A stretch of DNA of 64,000 nt from Pirellula sp. (GTDB lineage: Bacteria > Planctomycetota > Planctomycetia > Pirellulales > PNKZ01). Where the stretch lies: positions 682,001 to 746,000 of the forward strand of contig PNKZ01000001.1 of assembly GCA_013822735.1 (NCBI GenBank), written 5' to 3'. Within the stretch, counting starts at the first letter, position 1. Every line of letters starts with the position of its first letter. The notes beneath the pieces are model-generated. The model saw nothing but the letters and a program-made list of their open reading frames with translations, did no database searches and was not told where the DNA came from. This document shows, piece by piece, positions 5,171 to 57,848 of this stretch. A program made the position numbers and the translations under genes.

Positions 5171-5252
5171 CAGCAAGGGAGATGAGGGGGATACGGAGGG
5201 GATGGGGGAGATGAATTCAGAAGGCGAGCCGGGAGCGTGAGTGACCGGAGTC
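5171..5252. repeat. dispersed G-rich repeat, copy A
   Basis: This ~82-bp stretch, starting CAGCAAGGGAGATGAGGGGG and ending in CGAGCCGGGAGCGTGAGTGACCGGAGTC-type sequence, recurs in reverse orientation at 47393-47477 with roughly 80-85% identity by eye. Both copies sit near a CGACGTAAGT nested palindrome. Confidence 0.75.
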
Positions 5253-18699: not shown

Positions 18700-18713
18700 G
18701 CCTTCATTCTAAA

Positions 18714-18802
18714 TGCTGAATGCGGAATGCGGAATGCTGAACGGGGGAACGACCGGAATCGCTCCTGTTCGGCATTCGGCATTCCGCATTCGGCATTTCC
18801 TA
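18714..18802. repeat. inverted pair of heptanucleotide tandem repeats
   Basis: Left arm TGCTGAA, TGCGGAA, TGCGGAA, TGCTGAA (18714-18741); right arm TTCGGCA, TTCGGCA, TTCCGCA, TTCGGCA (18768-18795). The arms are reverse complements unit by unit, so the tract can fold. It runs into the priA stop codon (18800-18802). Confidence 0.75.
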
Positions 18803-21127
18803 CAACATGTCCAGCGGGTCTACGTCCACGATCCATTGCACGTCTTCCGGCGGCTTCAGGTCGGCGATCGTCTTGCGCACCGCGGCGTGCAGGCCCGCGG
18901 TGTCGGTCGATTGGAGTTGCAGGTGAAAGCGGTGGAGACCGCGGAGCCTTGCGATCGGCGCCGGGGCGGGCCCGAGCAGTTTCGTCGGTACGCCTGCCGC
19001 CGCAGTCGCCGACGTGAGCAGCTTGCCGAGGTGCATGGCGAATTCCTTGGTCACCGGCTCACGCGGCCCACGCACCACGAGCCGGACCATGCTCGAAAAC
19101 GGCGGGTAGCCCCATTCTTCACGGTTCTTCAATTCCTCGGCCGCAAAGAGTTGGTAGTCGTGCCGCGAGGCCGCCATCACGGCCGGGTGATCGGGCGAGA
19201 GCGTTTGCACCAGCACGCGCCCGCCGCGCTCGCCGCGCCCCGTGCGGCCGGCCACCTGCACGAGCAAGTGAAACGTCCGCTCCGCCGCGCGGAAGTCGGG
19301 CAGGTGCAGCGCCGTGTCGGCGTTCACCACGCCGACCAGCGTCACGTTCGGGAAGTCGAGCCCTTTGGCGATCATCTGCGTGCCGACGAGGATCTGCGCC
19401 TCGCCGTCGCGAAATTGCGCGAGGGCCCGCTCGTGGCTCCCCGGCTTCTGCATGCTGTCGGTATCCATGCGCAAGCAGCGGTAGCCGCGAAACCGCGCGT
19501 TGACCTCCGCTTCCAGCTTTTCGGTGCCATAGCCGCCGAAGCGAATCTCGGGGCTGTGGCAACTCGGGCAGGCCCGCGGGGCGGCGATTTCATAGTCGCA
19601 ATAGTGGCACAGGGCGTTCCCTTCGTAGCGATGATGCGTCAGCGAGATGTCGCAGTTCGGGCACTTCAGCGCCTCGCCGCAGGCCGGGCATTGGATATGC
19701 GTGGAATAGCCGCGCCGGTTGAGCAGCAGGATAACCTGCCCTTCATCAGCCAGTGCCTTCTCCATAGCCTGCGCCAGCGGCCTGCTGATCGCCCCGCGCG
19801 AGCCGCGCTCTTTGGATTCGTGCCGCAGGTCGACGGTGAGCACGTCCGGCAACGGCCGATCGTACACGCGCCGCGGCATTTCGATGAGCCGAAACTCGCC
19901 GGCCCGGGCCCTTTGAAAACTCTCTAGCGACGGCGTGGCCGAGCCCAACACGAGCGGCACGTTCTCCGACCGCGCGCGAAACAGCGCCACGTCGCGCGCA
20001 TGGTAACGCGGCGCGGTTTCCTGCTTGAAAGTCGACTCATGCTCTTCGTCGAGCACGATGAGGCCGAGGTGCGGCGTCGGCGCAAACACGGCGCTCCGCG
20101 CGCCGACCACGACCGGCACCTCGCCGCGCGAGATCTGTTGCCAATAGGCGTGCCGTTCCGCATCGGTCAGGTGGCTATGCAACACCGCCACGCGCCCGAA
20201 GCGCGCCCGAAAGCGTTCTTGCACCTGCGGCGTCAGGCTAATCTCGGGCACCAGCACGATCGCCTGCCGGCCGTACGACACCACTTCTTGAATCGCGCGG
20301 ATGTACACTTCCGTCTTGCCGCTGCCGGTGATGCCGTGGAGCAGCATCGTCTCATGCCGCTTGCCGCGCAAGGCGGAGAGCAACACGTCGAGTGCGTGTT
20401 GCTGGTCGGGATTCAGCTCATGGTTTTCTTCGCGCGCATGCACCGGGTGCACGATGTCGGTCGTCTGCAACCGCACGGCTTGCGAGCGGATCATCCCCTT
20501 GCGCCGCAACGTCGTGATCGGCGCCATCGTGCACTGCGCGGCCTGCGCCAGTTGCTGCGGCGTCATCGCATGCAGGGCCGATTGCAACATCTCCAACACG
20601 CGCCGCTGCTTCTTCGGCAACGGCAGGTCGGCGAGCTTGCCGCGGTATTCGTCGGCCAGGGTCAATAGCGTCGTGAGCTTCGTGCCGGCTCCCATCCGCA
20701 CGCCGGCCGGCACCACGCTTTCGAGCACCTGCCCCCATTCGCAGAGGTAGTACTCGCTCATCCATTGCGTGAGCTTCAAGAGCGGCAACCGAACGAGCGG
20801 CACCTCGTCGAGGCATTCGGTAATCTCTTTCAGTTTGCGCGGGCCGAGCGTCTTCGTTTCCAGCCGGACGCAGTAGCCGTCGACCGGCCGATTTCCGCGC
20901 CCCAGCGGCACGCGGACCCGGCAGCCGACTTGCAGCACGTCGAGCAATTCGTCCGGCACGAGGTAGTCGAACTCTTGCTGCGGCCCGCTCGCAAAGACCA
21001 CGGCGGCGACCATGCGCAGTTCGGCGTCGTCCTCTTCCCAAGGAGCGTCGTCGCCGAAGAGGTTTTGCTGCGTTTGCTCGGTCATTGCTTGCCGGAAGTC
21101 ATCGTCGGTAGAATTGCGAAACTTCAT
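18800..21127 (-). CDS. priA: primosomal protein N' (replication restart helicase)
   Basis: 775 residues. N-terminal 3'-DNA-binding domain (~residues 35-130), winged helix, then a superfamily 2 helicase: Walker A GITGSGKTEVY, DEEH box VLDEEHESTFKQE, motif III LGSATPS, motif VI QVAGRTGRGERGG. The zinc-binding insert has four Cys pairs (CPACGEALKCPNC, CHYC, CPSC). It restarts stalled forks. An alternative start at ATG 21085 would drop 14 residues. The start is 32 bp from the divergent nadD start, so they share a promoter region. Confidence 0.96.
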   Translation of the reverse strand: MKFRNSTDDDFRQAMTEQTQQNLFGDDAPWEEDDAELRMVAAVVFASGPQQEFDYLVPDELLDVLQVGCRVRVPLGRGNRPVDGYCVRLETKTLGPRKLKEITECLDEVPLVRLPLLKLTQWMSEYYLCEWGQVLESVVPAGVRMGAGTKLTTLLTLADEYRGKLADLPLPKKQRRVLEMLQSALHAMTPQQLAQAAQCTMAPITTLRRKGMIRSQAVRLQTTDIVHPVHAREENHELNPDQQHALDVLLSALRGKRHETMLLHGITGSGKTEVYIRAIQEVVSYGRQAIVLVPEISLTPQVQERFRARFGRVAVLHSHLTDAERHAYWQQISRGEVPVVVGARSAVFAPTPHLGLIVLDEEHESTFKQETAPRYHARDVALFRARSENVPLVLGSATPSLESFQRARAGEFRLIEMPRRVYDRPLPDVLTVDLRHESKERGSRGAISRPLAQAMEKALADEGQVILLLNRRGYSTHIQCPACGEALKCPNCDISLTHHRYEGNALCHYCDYEIAAPRACPSCHSPEIRFGGYGTEKLEAEVNARFRGYRCLRMDTDSMQKPGSHERALAQFRDGEAQILVGTQMIAKGLDFPNVTLVGVVNADTALHLPDFRAAERTFHLLVQVAGRTGRGERGGRVLVQTLSPDHPAVMAASRHDYQLFAAEELKNREEWGYPPFSSMVRLVVRGPREPVTKEFAMHLGKLLTSATAAAGVPTKLLGPAPAPIARLRGLHRFHLQLQSTDTAGLHAAVRKTIADLKPPEDVQWIVDVDPLDML

Positions 21128-21765: not shown

Positions 21766-21778
21766 GTCGCTTGATAAT

Positions 21779-21849
21779 GCTTAGCCGTGGCGGCCACGCC
21801 ACGCCACGCTTCGCCACGTCGCGACGGGCCGTGGCCGGCCCGGCTAAGC
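21779..21849. repeat. GCTTAGCC-family inverted repeat between convergent genes
   Basis: GCTTAGCC at 21779-21786 and GGCTAAGC at 21842-21849, with further pairing inside (GTGGCGGCCACGCCAC, GGCCGTGGCCGGCC). The right arm overlaps the stop codon of the minus-strand gene ending at 21844: its TAG is read from the repeat. Confidence 0.75.
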
Positions 21850-22107
21850 AGCGCGGCGCGCGTACACCAGTCGCTCGAGCTCCGGTGCTAGCAGGAGTTT
21901 CGCCGGCAGCGGTTTGCTGCGAAGCAGTTCCAGCACGGCGTGCAAATGTTCGATCGGCTTCTGCCGTGCGTCGAGAAAAAGCCAACGCCGGCCGGCGAAT
22001 TCGCACACGCCCCCTGCGGCTCCCTCGTCCAGCACTTCCGTGCGCACGCGGTAGCCGAGCTTTTTCGCCGCTGCGATCGCCGCTTCCAAAAGTTCGATCG
22101 TGTGCAT
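21844..22107 (-). CDS. small conserved-looking hypothetical protein
   Basis: 87 residues from ATG 22107 (MHTIELLEAAIAAAKKLGYR). A longer frame to 22173 exists, but its first 22 codons lie in an inverted-repeat element, so the downstream ATG is preferred. The product is a compact alpha/beta domain: RTEVLDEGAAGGVCEFAGRRWLFLDARQKP, read in part, followed by a helix rich in Leu. No known motif recognised. The stop codon lies in the flanking GCTTAGCC repeat. Confidence 0.7.
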   Translation of the reverse strand: MHTIELLEAAIAAAKKLGYRVRTEVLDEGAAGGVCEFAGRRWLFLDARQKPIEHLHAVLELLRSKPLPAKLLLAPELERLVYARRAA

Positions 22108-22122
22108 GGCCGCTACCTTGTC

Positions 22123-22190
22123 TGTAGGGAACGCCCTCCGTGGCGTTCCGCGAACTGCCGGACGGAACGCCACGGAGGGCGTTCCCTACA
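22123..22190. repeat. 28-bp-TIR element, short form, copy 1
   Basis: Perfect 28-bp terminal inverted repeats (22123-22150 and 22163-22190; outer end TGTAGGGAACGCC, inner end GGCGTTCCG) around a 12-bp centre. Same TIRs as the elements at 30210, 53090 and 57777. It lies 15 bp upstream of the small minus-strand gene. No coding capacity. Confidence 0.9.
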
Positions 22191-22409
22191 ATCTCAATCG
22201 CGGGCGGAATGATACCGATCTCGGTTTCAGTCGCGAAGGCCGACATGACGATAGGCTTTTCAGAGCGCTAAAACATTGCCGGCCAGAGGTTTAAGTACGC
22301 GACGGTTGCGGGGGCAAGGAAGTCCCGGCAGACGGCGTAGATTCCTCGGCTTTAGGTAATTGCGGCAAGAAGTTCCGAGCGGTGCTGTCCAGGGAAGGGG
22401 TAAGCCACG

Positions 22410-23249
22410 ATGTCGGTAGGCGGATCGGATCAGGCTCGGCTCATCGAACAGATCGCGCTGCTCAAAGACCAGCTCGCGCAGGCCCAAAAGCTGACGGCGC
22501 TTGGCGAACTCATCAGCACGACCACGCACGAATTCAACAACGTGCTGATGACCATCATCAACTACGCGAAGCTCGGCCAGCGTCATCCCGACGCGGAAAC
22601 CGCGGCCCGCTCGTTCGACAAAATTCTCATCGCCGCCAACCGTGCGGCCCGCATCACCAACGGCATCCTCGGCTTCGCGCGCAATCGCCCGCCCGGCTTC
22701 GAGCCGACCGACATGGTGAAGCTGATCGACGATACTCTACTGCTGCTCGAGCGCGAGATGGTGAAGTATCGTGTGAAAGTGGAACGCCGCATTCTCGAAG
22801 CACCGCCGGCCTTGGCGAACACGAACCACATTCAGCAAGTGCTGTTGAACCTGTTGATCAATGCCCGGCAGGCGATGCCGCAAGGGGGCGTGATCCTCGT
22901 GCAACTGAGTCACGACGCGCAGACCGACACCGTCGATCTCTACGTGCGCGACAACGGCACCGGCATTCCGCCGGAAACATTGCGACACATCTTCGAACCG
23001 TTCTACACGACGAAGAGCGGGCCCGACGCCTCGGGCAAGGGAGGCACCGGCCTCGGGCTGGCCGCCTGCCGCGACATCGTCGAAGCCCACCACGGCAAGA
23101 TTCGCGTGGAGAGCGCCGTCGGCAAGGGAACGGCCTTCACGGTCAAGCTCCCGGCATATCACGCGGCTCCCGTAGCGGCGCCGATCGCAGCTCCCGCGCC
23201 GATCGTCGCGATGCCGATGATTGCTCCGATGCCGTTGATCGCCGAGTAG
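22410..23249 (+). CDS. soluble histidine kinase
   Basis: 279 residues with no membrane segment. N-terminal coiled coil (RLIEQIALLKDQLAQAQK), phosphoacceptor box LGELISTTTHEFNNVLMTI (His in THEFNN, the HisKA variant of NtrB-like kinases), HATPase with N-box LLNLLINARQAMPQGG, G1 VRDNGTGIPPE, F-box FEPFYTTK, G2 GGTGLGLAACRDIV. The C-terminal 30 residues are an Ala/Pro/Met-rich tail. No response regulator is adjacent. It could pair with a PAS or receiver protein elsewhere. Confidence 0.9.
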   Translation: MSVGGSDQARLIEQIALLKDQLAQAQKLTALGELISTTTHEFNNVLMTIINYAKLGQRHPDAETAARSFDKILIAANRAARITNGILGFARNRPPGFEPTDMVKLIDDTLLLLEREMVKYRVKVERRILEAPPALANTNHIQQVLLNLLINARQAMPQGGVILVQLSHDAQTDTVDLYVRDNGTGIPPETLRHIFEPFYTTKSGPDASGKGGTGLGLAACRDIVEAHHGKIRVESAVGKGTAFTVKLPAYHAAPVAAPIAAPAPIVAMPMIAPMPLIAE

Positions 23250-23253
23250 ACTT

Positions 23254-23311
23254 GCTTAGCCCGGTCGGCCACGACCGGTGCATGGGCGCCGCGTGGCCGC
23301 GGCGGCTAAGC
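23254..23311. repeat. GCTTAGCC-family inverted repeat between convergent genes
   Basis: GCTTAGCC at 23254-23261 and GGCTAAGC at 23304-23311, with a nested palindrome (CCGGTCGGCCACGACCGG). It begins 5 bp after the histidine kinase stop and faces the convergent lipoprotein gene, where it could end transcripts from both sides. Confidence 0.75.
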
Positions 23312-23345
23312 GTTCGAAACCATCGTAGAAACGTGCAGTTCGGCG

Positions 23346-24077
23346 TTACTGCCGACTTTCGATCGCCGGGGGCAACGTTTCGAGCGCTGGGCCCGGCTGT
23401 TGCGGCACTATTTGGGCGCCCGGCGGCAATGTGTTTTCCCCGCCGAACCATTCGTTGGGAATCGCGCCGAAGCCGCCGCTAGCCGGAGCGGTGCCGGGCG
23501 GGGCGAGGCGTACCCAAATCTCTTGGAGGATCGTTTGCTCGAGTGCCGCGTCGCGGCCGAGCGGGATCCAGCCCTTGGTCGTCGCTTGAACGCCGACCGG
23601 TTCTTCAATGCGCACGAACGAGGCGTCGTTGCGAAACGTCGCCGCGCCGGCCGTACTGTACTCCGGCCGTGCTAAGTCTTCGAGTTCTTTGAAGACGGTG
23701 ACTTCGATTTGGAAGACGTCGCCGGCCGGCACCACTTGCACGACCGCTCGGCGGCGGATGGTTTGCAGCGTGTCGTGCGCCTTCTCGTACGTGTCGGCCG
23801 CGTCGCCCCGCCAGGGCTCGAGATAGGTCGCGCCGGTGCGCGGCGCGGTGTCGATCCGGCCGACCGTGAGAATCTCGCCGGCCTGACGGACGCGCTGTTC
23901 CGTCTGGATGTCGAAATAGTTGTCGACCACGTCGACGATCTGATCCCACATGGCATCGCACTGCGACGCCGGGACCGTGAGCGGGTTCTCAAGCGGCGGC
24001 AGCTTCTGCTTTTGAAAGCGCGCGCAGCCGCCGACGCAGAGGAGTGCGACGACGACGGATAGGAGAAGTGAACGCAT
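23346..24077 (-). CDS. predicted lipoprotein, unknown function
   Basis: 243 residues from ATG 24077 (MRSLLLSVVVALLCVGGCARF), chosen because the signal peptide and lipobox (CVGGC) directly follow; the longer frame to 24146 adds repeat-derived sequence. The mature part contains a mixed alpha/beta domain (SQCDAMWDQIVDVVDNYFDI, TYEKAHDTLQTIRRRAVVQV, VFQIEVTVFKELED) and ends in a Pro/Gly-rich tail. No known enzymatic motif. The fold hints at an assembly- or secretion-associated lipoprotein, but I cannot name it. Confidence 0.85.
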   Translation of the reverse strand: MRSLLLSVVVALLCVGGCARFQKQKLPPLENPLTVPASQCDAMWDQIVDVVDNYFDIQTEQRVRQAGEILTVGRIDTAPRTGATYLEPWRGDAADTYEKAHDTLQTIRRRAVVQVVPAGDVFQIEVTVFKELEDLARPEYSTAGAATFRNDASFVRIEEPVGVQATTKGWIPLGRDAALEQTILQEIWVRLAPPGTAPASGGFGAIPNEWFGGENTLPPGAQIVPQQPGPALETLPPAIESRQ

Positions 24078-24096
24078 TGCGGAGATGAGCGCGACT

Positions 24097-24206
24097 AAAG
24101 TAGTCCGCGACTCCGTCGCGGAAATGAGCGTAGTTGCGGTGACCAACGATGGCGATCGGATTCGATGGGGAGCGCGTATTTCCGCCGCGGAGCGGCGGAC
24201 TACTTT
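24097..24206. repeat. inverted-repeat element with AAAGTAGTCCGC ends
   Basis: AAAGTAGTCCGC (24097-24108) and GCGGACTACTTT (24195-24206). Each end is itself a hairpin: CCGCGA/TCGCGG at 24106-24122 and CCGCCG/CGGCGG at 24182-24198, with complementary CTCCG and CGGAG loops. It sits in the divergent gap upstream of the lipoprotein and vWA genes. Confidence 0.75.
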
Positions 24207-24309
24207 CGGGGGGCGGTAGTGTGACGATGCCCCCCGGCCCCGGCAATATCAGATTGGCCCCTGCCGGCACGGGCCGAAAACCGCGGATTTCGGCCGTTCG
24301 AACATTCCG

Positions 24310-24336
24310 GGAACTTTTTGCCGGGCTGCCGGCGTC
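24310..24336 (+). promoter_or_regulatory. candidate ECF-sigma promoter for the VIT-vWA gene
   Basis: GGAACTTTTT (GGAAC at 24310-24314) and CGTC (24333-24336) separated by 18 bases fit the GGAAC/CGTC pattern of extracytoplasmic-function sigma promoters, about 70 bp upstream of the ATG. Spacing is one base longer than usual. Confidence 0.4.
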
Positions 24337-24406
24337 GAAGGGTGAGCAACCTTGCGCCCGGCGTCTCTGCCGGCGTCGCCCTTATTCGCAGCGGGAGTAA
24401 ACGGTC

Positions 24407-26692
24407 ATGAACGCACGTGCCCCTTTTCTATCGGCCCTCCGTTTGTCGTGGTTCTGCTTGGTCGTGCCGGCACTGTTGTTCGCTCCCGCATTGGCTTCGG
24501 CCCAAGGGTTGCTCGTCAACGTTTCGCCGCATGAACAGGTGCGGCTCCCCCGACCCGACGTCATCCGCCCGCGTCATCCGCTGCCGCCGACCACCGCGGA
24601 TTCCTACCGGATCAAAGCGCTGGAAGTATCGGCGACGCTCAAAGATCAGGCCGCGAGCGTGCAAGTGACGCAGACATTTGAGAACACCGGCAGCCGGACG
24701 ATGGAAGTGGCGTTCGTGTTTCCGTTGCCGTACGACGCCGCCATCGATCGTGTGACGCTGCTGGTCGACGGCAAGGAACTGCCCGGCAAGTTGCTGACGA
24801 AGGAAGAGGCCCGGCGTCGCTACGAAGAGATCGTGCGCAAGAACCAGGACCCGGCACTATTGGAATGGCTCGGCGGCGGCATGTTTCAAACGAGCGTGTT
24901 TCCCGTCCCGCCGGGCCAAACACGAGAAGTGCAAATCCGCTACACGCAACTCTGCCGCCAGACCGACGGCGTGACCGACTTCCTCTTTCCGCTCTCGACG
25001 GCTAAATACACGACCCGACCGGTGGAAAAAGTCTCCGTCCGTGTAGCGATCGAAAGCAAGGATACGATCAAGAACGTTTACAGCGCGACACACGACGTCG
25101 ACGTGAAGCGGCGCGGCAAGACGGCGACGGTGACGTACTTCGGCAAGAATGAAATCCCCTCCGGCGATTTCCGGCTGATGTTCGACGTCGGTCGCGGCAA
25201 GCTTTCGGCCCGAGTGCTGAGCTACAAGCCCAAGGGAAAAGAGGAAGGTTACTTCCTCCTCTTGGCGAATCCGCAGATTGAAGACGATCGCCCCGCGCCG
25301 GCGAAGAACGTGGTGTTCGTGGTCGATCGCTCCGGCAGCATGAGCGGCGAGAAGATCGAACAGGCCCGCAACGCGTTGAAATTTGTGCTGCAGCGGCTGC
25401 ACGAGGGAGACCTGTTCAACATCGTCGCCTACGACGATCGGGTCGAAAGCTTCAAGCCGGAGCTGCAACGCTATAGCGATAAGACGCGCGACGAAGCACT
25501 CGGCTTCATCGAGTCGATCTACGCCGGGGGGAGCACGAATATCGAAGGCGCGTTGACGACGGCGCTGGAGCAATTGAAGGATTCCGAGCGCCCGAACTAC
25601 GTGCTCTTCATGACCGACGGCCTCCCCACGGCCGGCGAAACGAACGAAGCGAAGATTGTGGAAAGCGCGAAGAAGCACAACCGCGTACGGGCGAGAATCA
25701 TCGCCTTCGGCGTCGGTTACGACGTCAACAGCCGGATGCTCGACAAGCTCGTGCGCGAAAACTTCGGCCAAAGCGAGTACGTTCGGCCGAACGAAGACAT
25801 CGAAGAACGAGTGAGCAAGTTGTACGGCAGGATGGAGTCGCCGGTGCTGACCGGCGTGTCGATTGAATTTTGCGATGAAGAGGCGCCGGCGAAAGGTTCT
25901 GTCGTGAATCGCGTTTATCCGAAGGACGAGTTCGACCTGTTCGCCGGCGAGCAACTTGTCGTGGTCGGACGGTATCGACGGAGCGGCACGTGCGACGTGC
26001 GCGTCTCGGGCACGGTCGGCAAGGAGACCGAGGATTTCAGTTTCCCGGCGAAGCTTACGAAGGAAAGCGAGGACGAAACAAACGCCTTCATCGAGAAGCT
26101 CTGGGCTACGCGACGGATCGGCGAGATCATCGACCAGCTCGATTTGAAGGGGAAGAACGAAGAGCTCGTGAAGGAACTCGTCGAGCTTTCCACGCGGCAC
26201 GGGATTCTCACGCCGTATACGTCGTTCTTGGCGGACGAAAATGTGAACATTCACTCACTCTCGTCGAACGCCACGACGGCGACTTCGAACCTGCGAGCGT
26301 TGGAGCAAGTCGACGGACGCGGCGGGGTTGCCCAACGCGCGGCCAAGGGAAGTTTCCAAGGAGCGCTGAACAATGCGGCACCGAAGTCCGCAGCGCCGGC
26401 GCCGGCCGGGGCGGCCTACTATCGTGATGCCGCGAGCGATAAGGACGTGTCGGTGAGTACGGTGCGCAATCTCGGTGCGAAGTCGTTTTACTGGCGCGAG
26501 AACCGGTGGCAGGACTCCACCGTGACCGACGAGCAGATCAAGACCGCGCGACGCTACGAGCAATTCAGCGACGATTACTTCAAGCTGGCCGAGAAGCACG
26601 GCCGAACGTTGTCGCAGTATCTCGTGTACGACGAGCCGGTGATTCTGAACCTCGACAACGAAACGCTTTTGATCGAGCCGGCGAAGAAGTGA
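24407..26692 (+). CDS. exported VIT and von Willebrand A domain protein
   Basis: 761 residues. Signal peptide (~1-28), VIT domain (~55-180; YRIKALEVSATLKDQ, AFVFPLPYDAAIDR, LTKEEARRRYEEI), then vWA (~300-480) with the metal-ion site DRSGSMS, later Thr (GGSTNIEG) and Asp (FMTDGLPT). The remainder is a beta-rich region and a long C-terminal extension. The VIT-vWA pair is that of inter-alpha-trypsin inhibitor heavy chains and is common in planctomycetes; it is probably a surface or periplasmic binding protein. Preceded by a possible ECF promoter. Confidence 0.92.
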   Translation: MNARAPFLSALRLSWFCLVVPALLFAPALASAQGLLVNVSPHEQVRLPRPDVIRPRHPLPPTTADSYRIKALEVSATLKDQAASVQVTQTFENTGSRTMEVAFVFPLPYDAAIDRVTLLVDGKELPGKLLTKEEARRRYEEIVRKNQDPALLEWLGGGMFQTSVFPVPPGQTREVQIRYTQLCRQTDGVTDFLFPLSTAKYTTRPVEKVSVRVAIESKDTIKNVYSATHDVDVKRRGKTATVTYFGKNEIPSGDFRLMFDVGRGKLSARVLSYKPKGKEEGYFLLLANPQIEDDRPAPAKNVVFVVDRSGSMSGEKIEQARNALKFVLQRLHEGDLFNIVAYDDRVESFKPELQRYSDKTRDEALGFIESIYAGGSTNIEGALTTALEQLKDSERPNYVLFMTDGLPTAGETNEAKIVESAKKHNRVRARIIAFGVGYDVNSRMLDKLVRENFGQSEYVRPNEDIEERVSKLYGRMESPVLTGVSIEFCDEEAPAKGSVVNRVYPKDEFDLFAGEQLVVVGRYRRSGTCDVRVSGTVGKETEDFSFPAKLTKESEDETNAFIEKLWATRRIGEIIDQLDLKGKNEELVKELVELSTRHGILTPYTSFLADENVNIHSLSSNATTATSNLRALEQVDGRGGVAQRAAKGSFQGALNNAAPKSAAPAPAGAAYYRDAASDKDVSVSTVRNLGAKSFYWRENRWQDSTVTDEQIKTARRYEQFSDDYFKLAEKHGRTLSQYLVYDEPVILNLDNETLLIEPAKK

Positions 26693-26734
26693 AACAGGCG
26701 CTAGGCGGCAGGCGTTAGGCGCTAGACCAGGCGC
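26693..26734. repeat. degenerate heptanucleotide tandem repeat
   Basis: Six 7-mers: AACAGGC, GCTAGGC, GGCAGGC, GTTAGGC, GCTAGAC, CAGGCGC. It begins immediately after the vWA gene stop codon. Confidence 0.7.
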
Positions 26735-26785
26735 GTGTTATCCTGGAGCACGTTATTTCGTACGTGCTCTCAGGGATTTGTGCGG

Positions 26786-27106
26786 ATGTTATCTACGCCG
26801 ATCGGTCGTTTGCGCGTTATCGGGTTCATTGAAGGACTCTCGTATTTGGTGCTGCTCGGCATTGCGATGCCGCTGAAATACTGGGCCGGCATGCCGCTGG
26901 CGGTGCGGATCGTCGGCTCGCTGCACGGGCTGCTGTTTGTGCTGTTCTTCGCGGCCGTGACCGAAGTGGCCGTGAAACGCCCCTGGTGGTCGGGCGAGTT
27001 TTGGGGGAAGGCGTTCGTCGCCTCGCTCGTACCGTTCGGCACGTTCGTCTTCGACAGCTGGCTCAAACGCGTGGAAGCCGCGGACTTGGCGCAAGCGAGC
27101 GCGTGA
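26786..27106 (+). CDS. DUF3817 family small membrane protein
   Basis: 106 residues from ATG 26786 (MLSTPIGRLRVIGFIEG); an upstream in-frame start would add 17 unconserved residues. Three hydrophobic segments (about 10-30, 38-62, 75-95) and the pattern GFIEGLSYLVLLGIAMPLKY then GSLHGLLFVLFF match DUF3817 integral membrane proteins of ~100 residues. Function unknown. Confidence 0.85.
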   Translation: MLSTPIGRLRVIGFIEGLSYLVLLGIAMPLKYWAGMPLAVRIVGSLHGLLFVLFFAAVTEVAVKRPWWSGEFWGKAFVASLVPFGTFVFDSWLKRVEAADLAQASA

Positions 27107-27140
27107 ACAACCGGAGCAAGTCTTAGAAACGCCGGCGCAT

Positions 27141-27186
27141 AAAAAAAACACAAGCCGCCGGTAAGGTCCCGGCGGCTCGCGCTTTT
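27141..27186. terminator. bidirectional intrinsic terminator
   Basis: A 9-bp perfect stem (AGCCGCCGG 27153-27161 / CCGGCGGCT 27169-27177) with eight A's to its left (27141-27148, a T-tract for the minus strand) and TTTT to its right (27183-27186). It serves the DUF3817 gene and the convergent gene ending at 27235. Confidence 0.85.
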
Positions 27187-27234
27187 CCCTAATTCGCACA
27201 TCGGACCATCCCAGTCCGAAAGCGCCTTGCGGCA

Positions 27235-27933
27235 CTAGAAGTGCGAATCCATCCCCAAACGCATTTTGAGTTCTTCGAACTGCTGGAAGTAGTAGTCGCT
27301 CGAAGAGTGGACATGTTCGGCCTCGGTGATGAACTTCATCTTCTCGTTGCAGTTCACCGCGCGGCTCTGAAAGATCGATTCGTAATCGCCCAGGTTGTCG
27401 CCGTAGACGATCAGGAGCTTGTGTTCGTCGAACTGGACTTCTTGCGGAATGTTCGGATTCAGCACGGCGATGCCGGTGCAGCCGTCGTTCAGCAATAAGT
27501 CTTCGTATTCGTAGAGGATGCTCTTGAGCACCGGCAGGTCGATGTGCTCGCGGTAGAGATCCGTGTGCCCCTTGTTGTTGCGGTGGTGGCTCGTTTCGAG
27601 CACCACGTCGACTTCGAAGCCGAGCGGATCGAGCAGTTCGAGGAAGGTCTCGAAAAGTTCGTCGCTCGAAGCCGCGGCCATCAGCACCGGCACCGAGGCT
27701 TTGTTGTCGGTGTCGTTGTAGACGTCGTGGCGGAAGCCTTGCGTCGGTACGACTTGCAGGTCGAACGACGGTCGGACCGCGTCGGTCAGCACGAACTGGC
27801 CGTAACGAACCACGCCTAGATGGGTCTCTAGGGCGTCGTCGGTGACGCGCTCGAAGCTGCTGCCCGTGTTCGGAAGCGGCTGTTGGCCTCCTTCACGAAT
27901 CACGTTCTTGAAAAACCGTTTGATGAATCCCAT
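27235..27933 (-). CDS. conserved-looking cytoplasmic hypothetical protein
   Basis: 232 residues from ATG 27933 (MGFIKRFFKN); a TTG four codons upstream is possible. No signal peptide or membrane segment. Recognisable features are a basic N-terminus, a block RYGQFVLTDAVRPSFDLQVVP, acidic alpha/beta sequence (DELFETFLELLDPLGFEVDVVLETSHH) and a C-terminal helix (YYFQQFEELKMRLGM). It could be a planctomycete-specific protein; no function can be assigned. Confidence 0.85.
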   Translation of the reverse strand: MGFIKRFFKNVIREGGQQPLPNTGSSFERVTDDALETHLGVVRYGQFVLTDAVRPSFDLQVVPTQGFRHDVYNDTDNKASVPVLMAAASSDELFETFLELLDPLGFEVDVVLETSHHRNNKGHTDLYREHIDLPVLKSILYEYEDLLLNDGCTGIAVLNPNIPQEVQFDEHKLLIVYGDNLGDYESIFQSRAVNCNEKMKFITEAEHVHSSSDYYFQQFEELKMRLGMDSHF

Positions 27934-28608
27934 GGAATTTTGCAAACCTTTACTGCGATATCTGCGCTTTCGCGTCGGCGATTTACGAGTACTGTGCGAA
28001 AGCGTCCGCCCTTACAACCGTAGGTTACTTTTCTTACGTCCGGCGGAATTCCGGCCTGTTTGCGGTTTCGACTAAGTCGAGTTACGAGAGCGGCAAAGTC
28101 GTCATAAACGGCCTTGTCGCACCCGGCCCGGCGAGGCGAACGTTCCCGTGGGGAAAGCTGGTTTCCCCGCGAGAAACGAGCTCTTGGCAGAGCCGGCATC
28201 GCACTCACCCTGTAGTCTAGCACCGAGCTAGATGCGTCGATCCGCTCGCCGTAGAATTCGGCTCGGATTGCGGCAGCCGTGCGCCGCGCCAATCGCGGCC
28301 ACCGGCGAAGTTTGCCGGCCGCCTGCTCCCCCAGATGCTCCGGACGGCGGGGTCGACGTAAGCCGACCGACTCCCCGATCCGCAGCCTCCTCGTGAGGTG
28401 CATGCGGCGGAACCGTCCTGTGTCCCCCCAAGGTTCGATACGCATCGGGCGGGGGAAGCGTTCGCCGTGACGGCCGAAGTTTTCGAGAAACGGCGATTTT
28501 GCCGATTGAGCGTAGCGAGAAATAGTGAGCTGAGCCGTGCTAGGTTGGGCGGCGCGACGAGCTTGGACGTAAAGAGCAAAGCGGGATGAGACTCACAAGG
28601 AGACGGGG
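27934..28608. other. 675-bp gene-free interval with several small palindromes
   Basis: No coding frame on either strand has the local codon bias. Short perfect inverted repeats occur: GGGGAAA/TTTCCCC (28150-28168), CTAGC/GCTAG (28217-28231), and nested GCGGCC/GGCCGC around 28295-28325. I searched by eye for RNase P, tmRNA, SRP and tRNA signatures and found none. A structured leader or RNA remains possible. Confidence 0.5.
28597..28602 (+). promoter_or_regulatory. strong Shine-Dalgarno site for the transglutaminase-like gene
   Basis: AAGGAG at 28597-28602, six bases before the ATG at 28609. This is one of the few textbook ribosome-binding sites in the window and fixes the start codon. Confidence 0.8.
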
Positions 28609-30174
28609 ATGCGAAGCAGGATGATCGCCGAGAGACCATGGATTGCGGCGATCCTCGTCGCTTGTTGCGGTTGTGGGCCGGAGCCGAAAGCGGAGCAGGC
28701 CGGCGGCGTCGCGGCCGCACCGCCCGTGGTTTACGTCACACCGCCGACGCAGGCGGGGCCGCCGCCGTTTCGCGAGTTTTGGGAAGAGCACTATTTTCAG
28801 AACAGTAAGATCGGCCATACGCACGGTGCTTACTTTCACGACGTCGTCGACGGCGAACCGGTCGTGCGGATCGAGCAGACGGGGCAGATGGTGCTCTCGC
28901 GCGGCGGTCAACGGATCGAGCAGGCGATGCACGACATTTCTTGGGAGACGCCGGCCGGCGAGGTGCGCCGATTTCGCAACTCGATGACCGTCGCCGGGGC
29001 GGCCCAAACCACGACCGGCACGGTGCAGGGGGAGCACGCCTTGCTCACGCTCGAAACCAGCGGCAAGGCCACGACCAGCAAAATCGACTGGCCCCGCGGC
29101 ACGCTCGGCGAATTCGGCGTGACCGATTGGATGCTCCGCAACCGGCCGCAGCCGGGCGCCGCGGCATCGTTCCAAACGTTTCTACCGTTCTTCAATCAGA
29201 TCGTCGGCGTTACGCTCTCGGCCAAGCAGAAGGAGCCGGTCGTGCTCGGCGCCGAAACGCGGCAGCTCCTGCGCGTCGACACGCAGGCCGTGCTGCCCGG
29301 CGGCATGAAGCTCGACTCGACCGCTTGGGTCGACGACCAAGGCGTGGTGTGGAAGAGCGTCTATCCGGCGCTGCAGCAAACGACGCTCCGCGCGACGCGC
29401 GAGCAGGCGCTGAAACCGGGGGATGCCGCAGCAGCGGTCGACTTGGGTCTGGCGACGAAAGTGCCGACCGTGCCGCCGCTGGTGAAGCCGTATGAAACGA
29501 CGTTTGTGCGGTATCGCGTGCGACTGGCCGACGGAGACGCCGCCGCGGTGTTTCCTTCCGGAGAATCACAGACGGTGGCGCGCCGCGACGACGGCACGGC
29601 CGAAATTACCGTTCGCGCCGTGCGACCTGACTCGCCGCGCACGCCTGATGTGCCGAATGCGCCGCCGACGGACGACGATCGCCGAGCGAACAATTGGATC
29701 CAAAGCGATGATGCCCGCGTGGTGCAACTTGCGAGCGAAGCGGCGGGGACGGAGACGGACCCTTGGAGCGTTGCCGTGAAGCTGGAGCAATCGCTCCGGC
29801 CGAAGTGGCAAACGAAACCGCTCGGTACTTCCTTCGCCACGGCGGCCGACGCGGCGCGCGAACTTTCGGGTGATTGCACGGAGTACGCGGTGCTCTTGGC
29901 CGCGATGTTGCGCTCGCGCGGCATTCCCGCACGTACCGCCGTCGGGCTCATCTACGTCGAGAGCGAACAGGCGTTTCTCTACCACATGTGGACCGAAGCG
30001 TACCTGGCCGACCGCTGGATTCCGCTCGACGCAGCCTGGGGCCAAGGAGGCACCAGCGCCGGCTATCTTAAGGTGGCCCAAACCAATCTCGCCGGCGTCG
30101 AACCGCTCTCGGCCATGCTCAGCGTGGCGCAAGTGATGGGCAGGCTGAAAGTGGAAGTGCTGGAGCAGCGCTAA
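28609..30174 (+). CDS. exported transglutaminase-like lipoprotein
   Basis: 521 residues. The signal peptide ends in ILVACCGC, a lipobox followed by Gly. Residues ~40-350 are a beta-rich region of unknown type. The C-terminal ~120 residues carry the transglutaminase-like core: catalytic Cys in ELSGDCTEYAVLLAAMLRSR, His in FLYHMWTEAYL and Asp in WIPLDAAWGQ. Such domains act as proteases or amide-bond transferases; here it would work in the periplasm or on the outer surface. A strong Shine-Dalgarno site precedes the ATG. Confidence 0.9.
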   Translation: MRSRMIAERPWIAAILVACCGCGPEPKAEQAGGVAAAPPVVYVTPPTQAGPPPFREFWEEHYFQNSKIGHTHGAYFHDVVDGEPVVRIEQTGQMVLSRGGQRIEQAMHDISWETPAGEVRRFRNSMTVAGAAQTTTGTVQGEHALLTLETSGKATTSKIDWPRGTLGEFGVTDWMLRNRPQPGAAASFQTFLPFFNQIVGVTLSAKQKEPVVLGAETRQLLRVDTQAVLPGGMKLDSTAWVDDQGVVWKSVYPALQQTTLRATREQALKPGDAAAAVDLGLATKVPTVPPLVKPYETTFVRYRVRLADGDAAAVFPSGESQTVARRDDGTAEITVRAVRPDSPRTPDVPNAPPTDDDRRANNWIQSDDARVVQLASEAAGTETDPWSVAVKLEQSLRPKWQTKPLGTSFATAADAARELSGDCTEYAVLLAAMLRSRGIPARTAVGLIYVESEQAFLYHMWTEAYLADRWIPLDAAWGQGGTSAGYLKVAQTNLAGVEPLSAMLSVAQVMGRLKVEVLEQR

Positions 30175-30209
30175 ACGCCGACAAACGGTCGCCGGCGGGG
30201 ATACTGGTC

Positions 30210-30450
30210 TGTAGGGAACGCCCTCTGTGGCGTTCCGCGGCTAGTCGCAAATCCAAATAACCAAACACCAAATTCCAAATAAGGACCAATGACGAAAATT
30301 CCAATGTCCGCTGCGGCGCGATTCGGTCATTCGGTACTTCGTATTTGTTTGGAATTTGGTGCTTGGAATTTGGTCATTCGCCGCCAAAGACACGTCGGCC
30401 TGACGGCTCGACGCTCGCCTGGCGGAACGCCACGGAGGGCGTTCCCTACA
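30210..30450. repeat. 28-bp-TIR element, long form, copy 2
   Basis: Terminal inverted repeats at 30210-30237 and 30423-30450 (one mismatch) flank 185 bp. Inside is a second inverted repeat (CACCAAATTCCAAA 30266-30279 with 30348-30361). The block AGACACGTCGGC...ACGGCTCGACGCTC near the right end is shared with the long copy at 53090. The element lies between convergent genes, and its right TIR supplies the mgtE stop codon (30446-30448). No open frame. Confidence 0.9.
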
Positions 30451-31810
30451 ACAGAATTGCTTGCGCGATCGCGAAGTAGACGACGATGCCCGTTACGTCG
30501 ACCAAGCTCGCGACGAACGGGTTCGACATCAACGCGGGATCGAAGCCGAGTCGCTTGAGCAACAGCGGCATCAACGCCCCGACCAAGTTGCCGGCAAGCA
30601 CGACCGCCGCTACCGCTAGGCCGATCGTCAGCGAGAGTTTGAAGAGTTGCCCCTCGGCCACGCGATCCGACGGCGTAATCAAGGCGCGCAGAAAGCCGAC
30701 GAAGCCGAGCCCGAGACCGAGGGAGAGCCCCATCAGCACTTCGCGATTGAAGACGCGAAACCAATCCCTCGGCGTCAGTTCGCCGAGCGCCAACGCACGC
30801 ATAATGAGCGTGGCCGATTGCGAGCCGCAATTGCCGCCGGCCGAGATAATGAGCGGAATGAAGAACACCAGCGCCGGAACCTTCTCGAAGTCGCCTTCGA
30901 ATTCCGTCAGCGCCCAAGTGGTGAGAAATCCGGCCACGAAGAGGATCGAGAGCCACAGCGCCCGATTGAGCCAGAGCTGCGCGAACGAAGATTCGAGATA
31001 GCTATATTCGAGCGGGCCGACGCCGCCCATGCGATGCACGTCTTCGGTCGCCTCGTCGACGATAACGTCGATCACGTCGTCATGCGTTACGATGCCGACG
31101 AGCCGATGCTCATGGTCGACCACGGGCAGGGCGAGCAAGTCGTACTCGGCGAGCTTTTCGGCCGTCTTCTCGCGATCGTCGTCGACGTTCGCATAGACGC
31201 AATCGCGCTGCATGATGTCGGCCACGCGGCGGTGGGCGGGCGCGATGATCAGGTTCTTCAGCGAGACGAAACCCTTGAGATGCCGGTCGTCATCCACGAC
31301 GTAGCAGTAATAAATCGTCTCGCGATCGGGGGCCACGTGCCGCAAGCGTTCGATCGCCGCGGCGGCGGTTTCGTCGGCCGGCACAATCGCATAGTCGCTC
31401 GTCATCACGGCGCCGGTCGTGCCGTCTTCGTACGATTGCAGACGACGGATGTCTTCGCGTTCGGCCCGCGCGAGGAGTTGAAAAATGTGATCGGGCCGCT
31501 CGACCGGCAGACGCGACATGAGGCCGGCGCGCTCGTCGTGCGACATGTAGGTAATCAGCGCGGCCAGATCGTGATCGTCCATCTGGTCGGCGACGGCGTC
31601 TTGCAGCGTCGTTTCGAGGTAGTCGAAGATCGCGGCCCGCTCTCGCCCCGGCAGTAAGCCGAGCACAAACATCACGTCGCCGGCTTCGAGATCGTCGAGC
31701 AGTTCGGCGGCATCGGCCGGGTGATGGCCGGAGAAGAAATCGCGCAGGCCCGCCTCGTCGCGCTCGGCGACGAATTCACGTAGATCGGGGGCGAGCAACG
31801 GATTACGCAT
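30446..31810 (-). CDS. mgtE: magnesium transporter MgtE
   Basis: 454 residues from ATG 31810 (MRNPLLAPDLREF); the longer frame to 31927 adds 39 Arg-rich residues and is rejected. MgtE N domain (residues ~30-125; HPADAAELLDDLEAGD), two CBS domains (~130-255; MTSDYAIVPADETAA, YDLLALPVVDHEHRL), a plug helix, and five transmembrane helices with SAGGNCGSQSATLIMRALAL, the conserved pore signature. It is a Mg2+ channel gated by cytoplasmic Mg2+ bound between N and CBS domains. The last codons run into a repeat element, whose TAG ends the gene. Confidence 0.94.
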   Translation of the reverse strand: MRNPLLAPDLREFVAERDEAGLRDFFSGHHPADAAELLDDLEAGDVMFVLGLLPGRERAAIFDYLETTLQDAVADQMDDHDLAALITYMSHDERAGLMSRLPVERPDHIFQLLARAEREDIRRLQSYEDGTTGAVMTSDYAIVPADETAAAAIERLRHVAPDRETIYYCYVVDDDRHLKGFVSLKNLIIAPAHRRVADIMQRDCVYANVDDDREKTAEKLAEYDLLALPVVDHEHRLVGIVTHDDVIDVIVDEATEDVHRMGGVGPLEYSYLESSFAQLWLNRALWLSILFVAGFLTTWALTEFEGDFEKVPALVFFIPLIISAGGNCGSQSATLIMRALALGELTPRDWFRVFNREVLMGLSLGLGLGFVGFLRALITPSDRVAEGQLFKLSLTIGLAVAAVVLAGNLVGALMPLLLKRLGFDPALMSNPFVASLVDVTGIVVYFAIAQAILL

Positions 31811-32008
31811 GGCGACCAAAAATGCCGGCAAGGTCGAAAACCGGCGACAAGAAGTGCTTCGGCAGGTCCCGCCGGACCGGCGCGAAAGTGGGAGCGAGGT
31901 CGCGCGACGCCGCCCGTGAAGTTTCAAGATACTCGCGACGCGCGATTCTGGCCAGTAGTGAGGCGTCGGGAGGTAACGCTGCTCACCGGATCCGAACGGC
32001 CGAAATGA

Positions 32009-47300: not shown

Positions 47301-47385
47301 GTAGGGTGGGTCGAGCAAAGCGAGGCCCACGCGGAATGCGACGTTGCGAGACCGCGTGGGCCTCACTTCATTCGACCCACCCTAC
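47301..47385. repeat. inverted repeat GTAGGGTGGGTCGA / TCGACCCACCCTAC
   Basis: Perfect 14-bp terminal arms (47301-47314 and 47372-47385) with imperfect inner pairing (GAGGCCCACGCGG with CCGCGTGGGCCTC). No open frame. Sequences of this type occur as dispersed repeats in many bacterial genomes. Confidence 0.75.
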
Positions 47386-47392
47386 ACGCGAA

Positions 47393-47477
47393 GACTCCGG
47401 TCGCTCACGCTCCCGGCTCGCCAGTTCTGTTTCTTATCCCCCTAATCCCCTCCGCATCCCCCTTATCTCCCTTGCTG
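47393..47477. repeat. dispersed repeat, copy B
   Basis: Reverse-complement relative of 5171-5252: GACTCCGGTCGCTCACGCTC at the left and ATCTCCCTTGCTG at the right, pyrimidine-rich between. The surrounding 47094-47615 gap has no gene. Confidence 0.75.
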
Positions 47478-53089: not shown

Positions 53090-53351
53090 TGTAGGGAACG
53101 CCCTCTGTGGCGTTCCGAGCGCCGGCAAATGACCAAAACTCCAAGCACCAAATTCCAAACAAACACGAAGGACCGAATGGTCGAATGGCGCCGCAGCGCA
53201 CATTGAGATTTAGGTCATTGGTCCTTGTTTGGAATTTGGTGCTTGGGCAATTGGTTATTCCGCTCGCGGCAGACACGTCGGCATTACGGCTCGACGCTCA
53301 CCCCGGAGCGGAACATTTCAGAGCGGAACGCCACGGAGGGCGTTCCCTACA
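53090..53351. repeat. 28-bp-TIR element, long form, copy 4
   Basis: TIRs at 53090-53117 and 53324-53351 match those at 22123, 30210 and 57777. An internal perfect 22-bp inverted repeat (53141-53162 with 53225-53246) contains CACCAAATTCCAAA. It shares the CACGTCGGC and ACGGCTCGACGCTC blocks with copy 2. It lies between convergent genes. Confidence 0.9.
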
Positions 53352-57776: not shown

Positions 57777-57848
57777 TGTAGGGAACGCCCTCCGCGGCGT
57801 TCCGTGCGTCGGCTAGCGATCGGAACGCCACAGAGGGCGTTCCCTACA
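57777..57848. repeat. 28-bp-TIR element, short form, copy 5'-3' after the FKBP gene
   Basis: TIRs 57777-57804 and 57821-57848, 28 bp with two differences, around a 16-bp centre. Same family as 22123-22190. It lies 16 bp after the FKBP stop codon, before an intrinsic terminator. Confidence 0.9.

Follow-up and report, generated by a model that had tools for sequence, protein, structure and literature searches.

Termini of REP sequences serve as stop codons for some neighbouring genes in a Pirellula genome

The window analysed here, that is, the whole 64,000-nt stretch of Pirellula sp. DNA, carries three minus-strand genes whose 3' ends lie at or against repeats. The first, priA (18800..21127; PF17764, PF18074 and helicase domains), stops on a native TAG at 18800-18802. 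An earlier note on this DNA had placed this codon inside a heptad tract; the TAG is real, but it abuts the heptad inverted repeat (18711..18798) instead of lying within it, and no link of that repeat to a RAYT transposase gene or to a GTAG hairpin was found. The second is a small conserved gene (21844..22107; 87 aa with the chosen start), whose product had no Pfam match and which ends GCT-TAG inside GCTTAGCC, the motif of a repeat pair, TGCTTAGCC ... GGCTAAGCA, at 21778..21850. The third, the Mg transporter gene mgtE (30446..31927; PF01769/PF03448/CBS), ends CTG-TTG-TAG. Its stop codon (30446..30448) is the TAG of the GTAG of a repeat arm, TGTAGGGAACGCC, which starts with the last TG of the coding sequence followed by that TAG. 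As the note had proposed, the stop codons of mgtE and of the small gene are therefore carried by repeat ends.

The repeat adjoining mgtE is a REPIN-like pair of REP sequences of a family designated A (30210..30450), with TGTAGGGAACGCCCTCYGTGGCGTTCC arms at 30210-30236 on the plus strand and 30424-30450 on the minus strand; a REP of another family, D, and an AT-rich heptad tract lie between them. Family A pairs were also present at 22123..22190, with a 12-nt spacer, at 53090..53351, with a heptad tract, and at 57777..57848, and a family B pair (GTAGTCCGC..CTCCG..GCGGA) at 24097..24206. In the two long REPINs, the tract between the arms is of the CCAAATTCCAAA type (30250-30380 and 53130-53260). 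More REP-like families, of the GGCGAGCCGGGAGCG and GTAGGGTGGGTCGAG types, were noticed at 5223-5252, 47393-47422, and 47301-47385.

Folded as single-stranded DNA with DNA parameters, the family A arm TGTAGGGAACGCCCTCYGTGGCGTTCC leaves TGTAG unpaired in front of an 8-bp stem with a 6-nt loop (z -3.6). Searching the genome to which the window belongs (G000; 6.88 Mb in 38 contigs, 99% complete) with up to 3 mismatches yielded 154 such arms (79 + 75), and the reversed control pattern had 0 matches in the same search. All arm-level counts given below concern the 122 of these 154 arms that lie in the 0.775 Mb examined, window included. These 122 arms formed 43 inverted pairs, 68-262 nt long (186-262 nt in 11 of the 43), and 36 single arms, and only 4 of the 122 lay within called genes. 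Family A thus has the features of a REP, that is, a length of 20-40 nt, a 5' unpaired GTAG followed by a hairpin, a high copy number and a mainly extragenic location, and its pairs, made of two inverted REPs with a short spacer, are those of a REPIN. The possibility of a classic MITE or IS terminal inverted repeat was dropped because the arm is a GTAG plus hairpin that matches the flanks of RAYT genes. The window repeats are REP hairpins, mostly arranged as inverted pairs, and their anatomy is not that of an ordinary transposon end.

REPs belong to the sequences that RAYT (TnpA-REP) single-strand transposases mobilize, and for these enzymes GTAG is a recognition and guide motif. The genome contained 8 matches to the Y1 transposase domain (PF01797), and 4 of them have flanking repeats of families found in the window as well: family B (GTAGTCCGC..GCGGA) at locus L035, family C, the pair at the end of the small gene, at L038, family D (ACACGTCGGCCTTACGGCTCGACGCTCGCC; window 30387-30420, inside the mgtE element) at L037, and family G (GGCGAGCCGGGAGCG...GACCGGAGTC; window 5223 and 47393) at L036. 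The family C RAYT gene itself stops on a TAA that falls inside its REP arm GGCTAAGC. At L035 (~1440-1460), the family B RAYT gene ends GCA-TAG-TAG-TCC, its stop being followed by the in-frame TAG of the REP so as to form a double stop. At L032, tandem GACTGACACCTTTTTT copies lie downstream of a Y1 gene with no GTAG REP pair alongside.

For family A, the transposase was located in more distant genomes. In G010 and G028, two genomes of the same taxonomic order, a RAYT gene sits between family A REPs, the G010 locus consisting of three REPs, a 187-aa RAYT gene and two inverted REPs. The G028 RAYT is 206 aa long and 75% identical to that of G010. The family A and C RAYTs scored 20.5-22.6 bits on PF01797, just below the cut-off of 23. 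No match to the G028 RAYT was found in the 38 contigs of the 99% complete G000 genome, so that recent mobility of family A in this organism is at most putative. Family A was present in genomes G001, G003, and G006 and absent from G002, a 99% complete genome of the same genus. A RAYT gene was also looked for between REPs spaced by 671 nt on contig C2; none was there, and the stretch consists of two REPINs around a small gene.

To quantify stop supply, we measured, for each of the 122 family A arms, the stop position of genes reading towards it, using gene calls from an author's own Markov-model script, not a published caller. Eighty genes stopped no more than 400 nt away; in 12 of these 80, the stop was exactly the TAG of the GTAG. 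Any other single offset held at most 5 stops, and at the densest local rate the probability of 12 or more was ~2e-6. A 13th family A case, at L087, has a TAA at the same point in a variant arm, GTAAGGGAACG. At L066, a single REPIN ends two convergent genes, one per arm. Pfam matches were obtained for 11 of the 12 A-arm stop genes other than mgtE, the exception being the minus-strand gene at L066. For family B (GTAGTCCGC), 3 of 9 reading-in genes stopped on the arm, and for family C 1 of 10, namely the small gene of the window. Stop supply was weak in the RAYT-bearing genomes, with 0/8 reading-in genes in G010 and 1/13 in G028.

A trivial possibility was that REPs, being dense at gene 3' ends, put some TAGs in place by chance. 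As a matter of fact, among the 77 genes that end within 300 nt of an arm, 47 have their stop 8-30 nt before it, and TGTAG also sometimes served as a gene stop outside REPs (12 of 577 occurrences). However, the corresponding figure for family A arms was 12 of 122 (p=0.0002), and the excess was confined to one offset, with only 2 stops in the seven positions just outside the arm. This makes chance placement extremely improbable as an explanation, and we conclude that REP termini are used as stop codons by some neighbouring genes far above chance.

The same distribution bears on why REPs lie where they do. Arms were found by gene 3' ends more often than by 5' ends (77 vs 27 of 122), and the earlier note was right in describing the repeats as tightly placed against the former. 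It had also suggested that stop supply accounts for this association, but the 47 genes ending 8-30 nt ahead of an arm have stops independent of it. An alternative is that the REP is a selected regulatory module, whose hairpin tunes translation or protects the mRNA, stop supply being a by-product of the selected closeness. The 8-30-nt spacing and the preference for 3' ends agree with this, as does the report, as cited in a portion of PMC12306157, that E. coli REPs lying <=15 nt from a stop lower translation (Liang 2015). Yet the argument is one of placement, placement is not constant from genome to genome (it is different in G010 and G028), and avoidance of coding sequences would equally bring REPs to 3' ends. 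We consider such a module rather unlikely to be the origin of the REP-borne stops.

The reading that we favour is that REPs of the RAYT type landed at gene 3' edges and supplied stops through their GTAG, and we regard it as highly probable. GTAG holds TAG in one of three frames. A REP landing at a gene 3' edge in that frame would leave NTG as the last codon, or wholly CTG, and translation would then end on the TAG of the REP, the hairpin coming immediately after the ribosome that terminates there. Insertions in the other frames would be translated across the hairpin and would seldom be retained. In the genome of the window, none of the 77 genes within 300 nt ended at +3 to +300 past the arm start, and entry in the other two frames was rare, with one REPIN read through (L072) and two opposite-sense arms inside genes (L068 and L053). 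Selection against long read-through tails may be the simplest reason for this rarity. At L072 (5073-5144, gene on the minus strand), the whole REPIN lies inside a long gene and is translated in frame, as is a single REP arm inside the long plus-strand gene of L068 (2995-6513), the encoded peptides being, for example, VGNALRGVPS and ERHRGRSLQ. The plus-strand gene of L053 (3635-5086) runs through a reversed REP arm (RNATEGVPYN) and, following a short tail, stops soon afterwards, so that it carries a REP-coded C-terminal extension.

We then asked whether REP-borne stops were associated with altered C-termini, as the earlier note had predicted for the products of its three genes. None of the three behaved in this way. 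PriA orthologues from genomes lacking the tract (G001 and G003) end ...DVDPLDML, on the same residue and with the same TAG, the very outcome that the note had named as refuting its idea. MgtE has the same last residue in G001, with a TAG and no repeat, and in G003, G006, and G002, with a TAA. The last residue of the 87-aa protein is also the last in 4 of 6 relatives (G002, G003, G004, and G006), where the stop codon is TAA or TGA; for G005, the alignment and the reading frame both finish one residue earlier, and in G001 a contig boundary interrupts the gene. The repeat-borne stop is thus a fact for mgtE and the small gene, yet, judging from the aligned orthologues, neither protein is shortened.

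For the comparison elsewhere, alignments with identity <55%, ending >40 residues short of the C-terminus, or concerning genes <300 nt or with a gene score <20 were dropped, as were those whose stop fell beyond the edge of a contig or stretch. Genes stopping on a REP ended identically to their orthologues in 2/12 cases against G003, 4/13 against G001 and 2/9 against G002, as compared with 5/5, 6/7 and 1/1 for genes followed closely by a REP and 19/38, 17/27 and 5/8 for control genes. With the latter two classes pooled, Fisher tests gave p values of 0.02 (G003) and 0.045 (G001), and against controls alone 0.05 and 0.09; the classes are unmatched at the level of single genes, with similar mean identities (76-81% in G001 and G003). 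Genes with an arm near their end in another position were left out of the test (identical ends 0/3 in G003, 0/1 in G001). Counted per gene, the relatives' end was kept in 5 of 15 REP-stop genes vs 35 of 58 others (p=0.08). Truncation, which the note had named as one possible outcome, was not the rule: the REP-stop proteins were longer in 7 cases, equal in 4 and shorter in 2 with respect to G001 (n=13), and longer in 5, equal in 2 and shorter in 5 with respect to G003 (n=12). At L086, the gene ends on a family A REP here, its G003 orthologue on the TAG of GTAGGGTGGGTCGAG, a different family also found at window position 47301, and its G001 orthologue on a TAA with a degenerate family A REP just past it. 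Re-ending of genes by REPs is thus likely, but mild and not mainly truncating, with a modest excess of altered ends.

These data also bear on the converse scenario, in which the gene already ended NTGTAG and a REP landed or recombined there, the gene supplying the end of the REP. The MgtE case is in keeping with it, since in G001, where no repeat is present, the gene finishes in CTG-CTG-TAG on that very residue. Moreover, the C that usually precedes TGTAG was missing in 9 of 13 stop-forming arms, as if these bases were gene-derived. However, a native stop should have left the ends more often as in the relatives than the 5 of 15 observed, and the aligned relatives mostly lack TGTAG at that place. 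In addition, 11 of the 23 genes ending TGTAG in the DNA examined continue into a REP, which would demand extreme targeting. We attempted to read the empty sites by joining the flanks and aligning them to G001, G002, G003, and G006; divergence was too high for any junction to be resolved, and only the shared stop register of mgtE was recovered. Overall, a native origin of these stops seems improbable. Against REP insertion at the gene edge, in turn, stands that the proteins of this genome are often longer than those of relatives, an outcome that a simple insertion ahead of a native stop does not produce.

The base preceding TGTAG offered a further clue. It was C in 101 of the 122 family A arms of this genome and in 76/76 arms of G010 and G028. 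In a passage of PMC8266576, CT is given as the cleavage site of TnpA-REP enzymes, and the preceding C fits such a site next to GTAG. Stop-forming arms departed from this pattern (C in 4/13 vs 97/109 non-stop arms, p ~1e-5), which REP insertion explains only in part. Among the 43 family A pairs, 16 lacked the C at one end and 0 at both; under independence, the probability of finding no double loss is roughly 0.05, by a rough estimate. A possibility is that the target contributes the first two bases at one end of the REPIN, in which case the last codon would be of mixed origin, with two bases from the gene and the G, like the TAG after it, from the REP. Stop-forming ends might then preserve the polarity of past transposition like a fossil record, the stop being formed mostly at the target-side end and the other end keeping its own CTGTAG, an idea that we put forward as doubtful. 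If it were true, stop codons would reveal which REPIN end joined the target, and a number of this genome's genes would have a hairpin pressed directly against the ribosome as it terminates. They would also provide direct evidence of how REPINs are joined to DNA in species in which transposition has never been observed.

Collectively, the genome provides a clean, countable case in which the recognition motif of a selfish repeat is used as host coding punctuation. It also warns those who annotate genomes that mobile sequence determines where some proteins end.

In REPIN/RAYT systems, reportedly treated by Bertels and Rainey in 2011, the unit that is repeated also consists of paired REPs. As in the systems treated in sections of Nunvar 2010 (PMC2817692), where REPs lie very close to rayt stop codons, REPs flank a tyrosine transposase gene here; what differs is that this genome harbours several families side by side and lacks an orthologue of the RAYT of the most abundant one, A. 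With E. coli REPs, which lower translation when <16 nt from the stop (Liang, Rudd and Deutscher 2015, as cited in a portion of PMC12306157), those described here share a hairpin within ~15 nt of the stop, but here the stop can belong to the REP itself. The closest precedent is the 2013 survey of GTAG REPs by the Di Nocera group (BMC Genomics, PMC3733652), parts of which describe an unpaired GTAG plus hairpin, inverted dimers, a location mostly near gene 3' ends and sometimes inside ORFs, an occurrence in Planctomycetes too, and REP termini that often provide TAG stops. That survey counts 24 GTAG families, and the likeness is one of kind, not family by family; families C (GCTTAG) and D are not GTAG-tagged, unlike the REPs in those parts of it. 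Homologous proteins are aligned there, in a passage on the subject, for REPs at gene 5' ends, and its parts on TAG supply give no case counts, whereas counts with controls are given here. Stop supply by REPs is thus a known phenomenon, described in other bacteria in 2013, of which the present genome is a new example, and to which we add a controlled count, an orthologue test, and the assignment of the window repeats to RAYT families.
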